From: an uncultured Clostridia bacterium
Lineage (GTDB): Bacteria; Bacillota; Clostridia; Christensenellales; UBA1242
Length of the DNA: 34,415 nucleotides
Assembly: GCA_944372675.1 (NCBI GenBank)
Contig: CALVZW010000004.1
Location: 1 to 34,415 of the forward strand
Direction: 5' to 3'
The notes under the pieces: generated by a model
What the model saw: only the letters and a program-made list of their open reading frames with translations
Databases searched by the model: none
What the model was told of the DNA's origin: nothing
In this document: one piece after another, positions 23 to 27,209 of the stretch
Numbering within the stretch: position 1 is the stretch's first letter
Layout of the letters: each line of letters begins with the position of its first letter
Program-made: the position numbers and the translations under genes

Positions 23-39
23 TTCTTTTGTATTTTCAT
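23..39 (-). CDS. 5' fragment of a gene sharing its start with the phase-variable surface protein gene (partial)
   Basis: Only an ATG and the next 14 bases (MKIQK plus two bases) are present before the adapter. All 17 bases are identical to the start of the surface protein gene at 27150. AGGAG at 49-53 lies nine bases upstream of the ATG, as in that gene, and the promoter at 70-99 has the same boxes and spacing. The fragment is therefore very probably the start of a paralogue, or of a gene carrying the same mobile or duplicated 5' cassette. Nothing can be said about the rest of the protein. The contig stops ten bases before the point where the other copy has its poly-G tract. Confidence 0.7.
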
Positions 40-69
40 AATCTCGCACTCCTTTTTTATTTATATTTT

Positions 70-99
70 ATTATAACACAAAAAAACTTTTTTAGTCAA
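70..99 (-). promoter_or_regulatory. Sigma-A promoter of the truncated left-end gene
   Basis: On the minus strand there is TTGACT (94-99), an 18-base spacer and TATAAT (70-75), followed by AGGAG at 49-53 and the ATG at 37-39. The promoter at 27180-27209 has the same TTGACT box, the same 18-base spacer and a matching -35 to ATG distance within one base. Confidence 0.75.
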
Positions 100-25449: not shown

Positions 25450-27150
25450 CTAAATAATAATACCATTATTTCCTACAAAGCCTTGCAGTTTTATTGTAAT
25501 TGTGTCAACACTACTTAAATTAAATGTTATAACATTACCCCTATATGTAACATTATTTATAATATACTCAACATTTGTCGTGTAATATGTTGTTATCGTT
25601 ATTATATATGTTGTTGGAAGCATTGTAAGTACTATCGGTTGAGCCGTTGTTTGTGATACATATATTTGTTGCACATTTTGCCCTTTTTCATCACTCATAT
25701 TTAATATTGCACCAACATTTGTTTCAACATTTATGTTTAATTCCTTTGATTTGTCAAATGCTCTTAAATACGGATATCCATCATTAGTATTTTCGTCAAT
25801 TGCCCAAACTTCTGTAAAGTCCCAACCAGCATTTTGATATGTTTCTTGTTTTTTCATATCTTCTATTGAAGTTTGCGTTGCTCCGTCATAAGAGTAGGTA
25901 CAAATTCCTTGCAAAACAAATATTCCACTAACATTTGATATATTGCTGTTATAATCAAAAACTCTTTCAAATTTCCATCTATCCGTTACATCATTTCTTG
26001 CAACCACGTAACAATTTTCTACTCTTCCCTTATTAGAGCAAATTGCGTAACTTCGCCAAGCATCTAGGTCTGAAATTCTTACATAACAATCTTTAATTAC
26101 ACCTGTTTCATAATTTGTATTTACTAAACCACCAAAGAAATCACTTCCATCACCATAAGAATTGTCTGCTACTTTTGTTAAGTTTACATAACATTGAGTT
26201 ATAGTACCGTAATTACCCCACGCCAAAGAAGCACAATCAGCCATATAAAGTCCGTTAAGAATGCCTTCCACCCAACACGCACTCAATGTTCCCCCCTCAC
26301 ATAATACTGAAACTAATCCAGCTGATGCATTTGGTGCATCAAAATCAGTACTTACTTTTCCATCAAAATTAGTTTTAACCCCTAAGTTTTTAACATTTCC
26401 TGATACATAACCAAAAGTTATAAAACCTTGTAGTTGATCACTTGTAAAATTTATAAGATATAACCCGCCATCATAAGTACCAGTAAAATTATTAGAATAA
26501 CTACCTATTTTTGTCCAAGTGTCAGTTGTATATGTTATGTCTGCAGTTTGAATGTAACAAGCACTTAAAAAGTTTTCTTCAGTTTGATGATTTGATAAAT
26601 ACCTTAAGTTCATTGCCGATGCAATTATATATGGTTTTTCCGCACTTCCATCTCGACTAGCATCATTTAATCTAAAATCTATTTCTCCCCCAGTATCTTC
26701 TACTGCTTCCACTGCAATTAAATTATTTGATATGTTAACTTTATTATTAATACAACATACTAATGTTAAACTTAACACAAACACAAAAAGCCACGATAAA
26801 AGTAATATCGTAGATTGCACCACACTATGCTTACTTTGCACTTTTGTTTTTACATTACAAACTAAATTAGTATCATTACTTAATTTAACTAATTTATTAA
26901 ACATTTTATCTTTATTATTATTTTTGTAAGTTATTTTGATATTATCACAAAGTATGTTTTCATTATTTAGTTTTGTACTTTTTGTAGCATTACATTTTTT
27001 TTGTTCATATAAACTTACTTTTGTTATGCCACTTTGTAAGAATAAGTTGTTTTTTATTTTGCTTTCGCAAAGATTGTTATTGTTATTGGATGTAGATAGT
27101 AAACTATCTACCCCCCCCCCCCCTAGTATTTTATTCTTTTGTATTTTCAT
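25450..27150 (-). CDS. Predicted phase-variable cell-surface protein with a GLUG-like repeat region
   Basis: The function is unknown. The 566-residue product has a polar, Asn/Lys-rich N-terminal part (1-112), then one hydrophobic segment (about 113-134, STILLLSWLFVFVLSLTLVCC) and a large extracytoplasmic part. Residues 160-465 resemble GLUG-type beta-helical surface proteins: GSAEKPYIIASAMNLRYLSN, WTKIGSYSNNFTGTYDGG, several CYV repeats, and GWDFTEVWAIDENTNDGYPY as the closing motif. The last 100 residues look beta-rich. No LPxTG anchor is seen. Codons 10-14 contain a run of 13 Gs. In this frame they read Gly4-Val, and with 12 or 14 Gs a TAG follows at once. AGGAG lies nine bases before the ATG, with a promoter at 27180-27209 and a terminator at 25358-25385, so the gene stands alone. 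A later in-frame ATG (residue 83) has no clear ribosome binding site. Confidence 0.75.
   Translation of the reverse strand: MKIQKNKILGGGGVDSLLSTSNNNNNLCESKIKNNLFLQSGITKVSLYEQKKCNATKSTKLNNENILCDNIKITYKNNNKDKMFNKLVKLSNDTNLVCNVKTKVQSKHSVVQSTILLLSWLFVFVLSLTLVCCINNKVNISNNLIAVEAVEDTGGEIDFRLNDASRDGSAEKPYIIASAMNLRYLSNHQTEENFLSACYIQTADITYTTDTWTKIGSYSNNFTGTYDGGLYLINFTSDQLQGFITFGYVSGNVKNLGVKTNFDGKVSTDFDAPNASAGLVSVLCEGGTLSACWVEGILNGLYMADCASLAWGNYGTITQCYVNLTKVADNSYGDGSDFFGGLVNTNYETGVIKDCYVRISDLDAWRSYAICSNKGRVENCYVVARNDVTDRWKFERVFDYNSNISNVSGIFVLQGICTYSYDGATQTSIEDMKKQETYQNAGWDFTEVWAIDENTNDGYPYLRAFDKSKELNINVETNVGAILNMSDEKGQNVQQIYVSQTTAQPIVLTMLPTTYIITITTYYTTNVEYIINNVTYRGNVITFNLSSVDTITIKLQGFVGNNGIII
27092..27123 (-). 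repeat. G13 homopolymer tract with adjoining hairpin (predicted phase-variation switch)
   Basis: On the plus strand 13 Cs run from 27111 to 27123, giving 13 Gs in the coding strand, 27 bases after the A of the ATG. Directly downstream in the coding sense lies a 9-bp inverted repeat with a 2-base loop (27092-27111, GTAGATAGT/ACTATCTAC). The run is extreme for this AT-rich DNA. The base count comes from the assembly and may be uncertain by one or two. Confidence 0.85.
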
Positions 27151-27179
27151 AATTTTGCACTCCTTTTCTAGTCATTATT

Positions 27180-27209
27180 AGTATATCACAATTAAAACTT
27201 TTTAGTCAA
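27180..27209 (-). promoter_or_regulatory. Promoter of the phase-variable surface protein gene
   Basis: On the minus strand there is TTGACT (27204-27209), an 18-base spacer and TATACT (27180-27185). AGGAG at 27160-27164 follows, nine bases from the ATG. The architecture is the same as at 70-99, so the two genes should be expressed alike. Confidence 0.75.

Follow-up and report, generated by a model that had tools for sequence, protein, structure and literature searches.

A repeated start module with a poly-G tract points to phase-variable surface protein genes in a genus of uncultured Clostridia

The window analyzed here, i.e., a stretch of 34,415 nucleotides from an uncultured Clostridia bacterium whose genome assembly (G000) comprises 1.21 Mb in 116 contigs, carries two genes with a similar beginning. 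One of them is complete; the other is cut off by the left contig edge after 17 coding bases, which read ATGAAAATACAAAAGAA on the minus strand. The features of both are listed in Table 1.

Table 1. Features of the contig edge and of the two cassette genes, in window positions.
Feature	Position	Strand	Basis or remark
Adapter remnant, not genome	1-22	+	exact match to Illumina adapter end; once in genome
Edge gene, first 17 coding bases (MKIQK and two bases)	23-39	-	identical to 27134-27150
Edge gene, AGGAG ribosome binding site, 9 bases before ATG	49-53	-	
Edge gene, promoter TTGACT-18-TATAAT	70-99	-	promoter pattern search
Complete poly-G gene, 566 aa, in frame (ON) in the assembly	25450-27150	-	
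Complete gene, single hydrophobic membrane segment, residues about 108-137	26740-26829	-	
Complete gene, inverted repeat TAGATAG(TTTA)CTATCTA	27093-27110	-	immediately 3' of the tract
Complete gene, G13 tract after codon 9	27111-27123	-	
Complete gene, AGGAG ribosome binding site, 9 bases before ATG	27160-27164	-	
Complete gene, promoter TTGACT-18-TATACT	27180-27209	-	promoter pattern search

At the edge, the first bases equal the 3' end of what we take to be the Illumina TruSeq adapter, and the same 22-base string has a single exact occurrence in the whole genome, namely here; genuine genome sequence thus begins at position 23. According to the initial annotation, the two genes agree in their 17 coding bases, in the position of the AGGAG motif and its distance to the ATG, and in the -35 box with its 18-base spacer. 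All of these points are borne out, with the -10 boxes reading TATAAT and TATACT, respectively. The two stretches share 83% identity over 77 bases, and with an E-value of 4e-16 their likeness is not due to chance. The nearest relative of the edge leader, ranking above the copy at 27150, is located on contig C95 (92%).

In the complete gene, the first arm of the inverted repeat places one TAG in each of the two non-coding frames. The encoded protein has no match in a Pfam search, its AlphaFold2 model computed without alignment reaches a mean pLDDT of 36.7, and a plasmid search returned only one record that resembles it, weakly. Gene order between 24135 and 28098 is ytxC, poly-G gene, rpsJ. In relatives, ytxC adjoins infC-rplT (L079, L081); in L081 a surface protein that lacks poly-G stands between them. 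The poly-G gene of the window is hence located at a break in gene order.

With the 99-base edge sequence as query, 27 matching places were found in the genome; partial leader matches on contigs C29 and C13 revealed no cassette when the sequence was inspected. The promoter pattern TTGACT-N17-19-TATAMT occurs 48 times, and comparison of coordinates with the leader matches assigns 23 of these occurrences to cassettes, all with a spacer of 18 bases. We give the copy number as 23 complete promoters, since L015 and L018, identical over 58 of 58 leader bases, are probably the halves of one gene, and L030, at a contig end, lacks a promoter. The initial proposal of a conserved 5' cassette that drives several genes is thereby supported, and the family is not confined to the two copies of the window. 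It had further been suggested that each gene carries its own poly-G tract near codon 10. The genome-wide search for the leader reveals a tract of G12-G16 after eight or nine codons in 22 of the 22 cassettes continuing past codon 9, in front of varied products; the edge copy, the only one cut earlier, is truncated upstream of the expected G run, whose place lies outside the sequence present, so that the suggestion stands for the testable copies. This genome contains 21 exact copies of the string AAGAATAAAATRCTAG8, and 98 relatives, including four of the same genus, contain none. In 12 of 26 cassettes of this genome, less than 300 bases of contig remain after the tract, which agrees with the earlier idea that the assembly stops at a repeated 5' end; the edge of the window additionally ends in adapter. 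Poly-A and poly-G junk was seen at the contig ends of L025, L082, and L083.

The remaining genomes of the genus, four in number (G001 to G004), have the same architecture, written in letters of each species' own. The stretches retrieved for these five genomes contain 108 tracts of at least nine Gs, all of which we read. A ribosome binding site and a start codon precede 80 of them, with the ATG 19-27 bases ahead of a tract of G9-17. All 80 cassettes have a long homopolymer inside the coding frame and close to its 5' end, as contingency loci do. The other 28 tracts, for which no start was found, were omitted from the frame count below. From the stem count 25 of the 108 were omitted, having either no AGGAG-like start and no 200-codon frame, or fewer than 36 bases left. 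A search for the pattern ATGA-N5-32-G11 was positive in every one of the five genus genomes and in 5 of the 55 further genomes covered. Runs of at least 11 Gs number 30 in this genome and 12, 14, 8, and 28 in the other four. Elsewhere in the family, 113 genomes from other genera have a median of 0, and any such run occurs in 40 of them. Six of these 113 (G100, G026, G028, G031, G005, and G123) have at least eight such runs, one of them 28; the runs listed for the six mostly have T or C just before them, and a separate poly-G system may exist there. In G004, a G12 run (L149 660-671; G004:C37:4659) occurs in the interval from a cassette gene to rpsJ; it belongs to no cassette and comes just behind a TATAAT-like box. 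Viral contigs searched with the tract-hairpin pattern gave no match, which speaks against a phage origin.

Products were studied in 51 frames of at least 200 codons behind the tracts. All 51 encode a hydrophobic membrane segment within 300 residues downstream of the tract, often with GLUG or List_Bact repeats behind it. In 50 cases it is the sole one in the whole protein, and from this single predicted segment a surface location of the products may be deduced. An LPXTG-like C-terminus occurs in none of the 51. Among 30 complete products, 19 end in three hydrophobic residues, e.g., NNSIII; the common type, NN(G/S)III or GNGIIV, is possibly a novel anchoring or sorting signal. Pfam matches in the 51 products comprise Glug (27), List_Bact repeat (16), and DUF6273 (5). 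As for the other long proteins of this genome (n = 15), nine match Glug or List_Bact, a part of them under the curated cut-off, and the remaining six have none or only unrelated weak Pfam matches. Thus, one cassette drives different kinds of proteins. L118 (G002:C27) contains a Hint/intein-like stretch at residues 476-569 (Intein_splicing, 5.9e-7, below the Pfam cut-off). A conserved block, approximately DFARxxRANNGxxM, is found in the tail leading from the tract to the membrane segment in L011, L020, L025, L028, L030, and L082 of G000, L108, L114, L119, and L122 of G002, and L128 and L132 of G003. In the G002 copies its DNA contains GGAGG and then an ATG in frame, by its letters a possible second start. 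An internal start with Shine-Dalgarno motif before the membrane segment was rejected as a general part, as it occurs in G002 and G004 and is absent from G000 proteins with the same block.

Directly behind the tract, a perfect stem of at least six pairs lies within 36 bases in 39 of 66 distinct sequences, compared to 7 of 55 and 4 of 53 in control stretches 60 and 120 bases further downstream. The share per genome is 17/20 in G000, 3/8 in G001, 4/9 in G002, 3/6 in G003, and 12/23 in G004. Stem sequences are diverse (TAGATAG, TAAATAGT, GTAGTC, TTCTAGTG, ATTTAAGTAAT, AGTAGTA), and by our reading of the stem list more than 15 different stems occur in the five genomes. The main G002 cassette (MLQE type) has a weak stem of three to five pairs; together with the low share in G001, this shows that the hairpin is not universal. 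In L016, the stem is present and a second near stop is absent.

For 66 of 78 cassettes (18 expected), the best partner over the 62 bases before the tract belongs to the same genome. For the tails from tract to membrane segment, this holds for all 24 with a match (34 searched), and for the outside domains, for 31 of 50 with a match (11 expected; 51 searched). Judged by these best partners, homogenization within species is stronger for the front module than for the outside part. With respect to placement, argS follows serS in G001, G003, and G004. In this genome, argS is located on contig C95, directly behind the cassette gene whose leader matches the edge leader best. The stretches upstream of these two leaders differ, so that two separate genes are present, and joining the contigs would most likely place two poly-G genes between serS and argS. 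In G002, a cassette lies 1.8 kb past serS, at a contig end.

Such patterns might also arise if the cassettes served recombination in the first place, with the repeat after the tract as a site where genes exchange their 5' ends and the tract being secondary. Similar tails on different outside domains, each of the 24 nearest to a tail of its own genome, agree with this, as do the inverted repeat at the junction and the position of the window gene where the order of neighbors departs from that in relatives. However, every complete copy has its own promoter, which argues against a single expression site: one active promoter with promoterless silent partners, as in vsa or shufflon systems, was not found among 23 complete promoters. 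Moreover, the stem sequences differ, unlike a recombinase site. We therefore regard a primary role of recombination as unlikely; it may act in addition to slippage, on a slower scale.

Reading frames were assigned in 50 cassettes whose tract is followed by 80 or more open codons. In 13 the frame is kept, and the remainder are shifted by one base, 24 in one direction and 13 in the other (p = 0.09 in a chi-square test against equal thirds), where assembled lengths of long G runs are uncertain in short-read assemblies and counts over related copies are not independent. All three phases are occupied, which fits slippage and not a fixed programmed frameshift. Tract length differs between paralogs within the five genomes, and with a single long frame per tract it sets whether the full-length or a short product is made. 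In 22 of the 51 frames of at least 200 codons, both wrong frames are closed within 9 bases of the tract, compared to 1.4% at random positions in the same frames and 1.8% at positions in the tails; within 24 bases, the proportion is 45 of 51, versus 24% and 33%. Closure within 9 bases amounts to 13/16 in G000, 1/6 in G001, 2/11 in G002, 0/4 in G003, and 6/14 in G004.

Known frameshift sites combine a slippery run with a hairpin behind it, and the enrichment of hairpins after the tract would suit programmed ribosomal frameshifting, in which the ribosome slips on the G run with the aid of the hairpin and expression is set at a constant level. Yet the offset varies over three phases, tracts of 12-16 Gs far exceed the length that a frameshift site needs, and many copies have a weak hairpin, all of which renders this mechanism quite improbable. 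That the tracts are decaying or mis-assembled and most copies pseudogenes, as 37 of 50 out-of-frame copies and the junk at some contig ends might suggest, is very hard to believe, given that out-of-frame copies keep 300-1300 open codons behind the tract, the in-frame share of 13 in 50 is near one third, and the same plan recurs in five genomes.

In our view, the cassettes very probably represent genus-wide poly-G contingency genes with a homogenized start module, the switching being inferred from the assemblies. Copy number, architecture, frames, stops, hairpin, and species-specific cassettes, as seen in the sequence, point in this direction. The 5' module common to at least 23 genes of this genome runs from promoter and ribosome binding site through eight or nine codons to G12-G16, followed in most by a hairpin with stops. 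Replication slippage at the tract in living cells would most likely add or remove Gs, possibly with a role of the hairpin. One length class in three would keep the frame and yield a membrane-anchored protein with an outside domain, and the other two would lead to an immediate stop. With independent switching of each gene, many surface combinations could arise within one clone, and the surface diversity that the initial annotation expected from combined ON/OFF states would follow. Recombination or copying would keep the module alike within species, with the outside domains diverging.

Mismatch repair by MutS and MutL usually restrains slippage, and its presence counts against our reading. Profile matches to MutS_I and MutL_C in all five genomes of the genus rule out its loss as the cause, and a local booster of slippage would fit this situation. 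A DNA hairpin adjoining the homopolymer could raise slippage; inverted repeats cause polymerase stalling, as stated in a review (PMC10710837). Taken further, the cassette may be a portable switch unit in which poly-G and hairpin raise local slippage despite mismatch repair and the stops ensure a clean OFF state, spread by recombination and grafted onto unrelated outside domains, with the hairpin kept as structure rather than sequence. We offer this extension tentatively and consider it possible, on balance rather doubtful.

Contingency loci of Neisseria and Campylobacter likewise show many poly-G tracts per genome and frame switching of surface factors; we know of no start cassette there that is common to two dozen loci. 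In Bifidobacterium breve, a sortase-dependent pilus is switched ON and OFF by replication slippage at a G-tract in the coding sequence (PMC9187656), which resembles our case in combining a gut commensal, an in-gene G-tract, and a surface structure. As described there, two pilus clusters of the studied strain, with equivalents in the genus, are concerned, in contrast to 23 genes with a common promoter-start cassette, hairpin, and stop guard; the terms "hairpin" and "stem-loop" are absent from the main text of that paper (PMC9187656). Homopolymeric tracts near the 5' end, e.g., poly-A in Listeria inlA, are described as inactivation switches at which a frameshift results in a very short product, similar to the cassettes; the tracts of that survey are poly-A/T, unlike the long poly-G in a dedicated repeated module (PMC2831843). 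The Ureaplasma MBA system shares with our genes N-terminal parts in common, inverted repeats, and surface variation, but is reported to switch by DNA inversion at the inverted repeats, in contrast to a homopolymer and an own promoter for each complete copy (PMC3047005). In the open-access literature, we found no account of a comparable family of cassettes for this group, which is weak evidence of absence as subscription papers lie mostly outside this body. Homopolymer phase variation as such is already known; the new part is the common cassette with hairpin and stop guard.

The repeated cassettes account for assembly breaks at these genes across the genus, and surface repertoires in such MAGs are thus likely under-counted. 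Their module is countable (promoter, tract, stop guard, hairpin), and its effect on slippage is directly testable. The findings would amount to large-scale poly-G phase variation in an uncultured Clostridia lineage with a reduced genome; each cassette gene is probably turned on or off by chance, which would give the bearer of a very small genome a variable surface.
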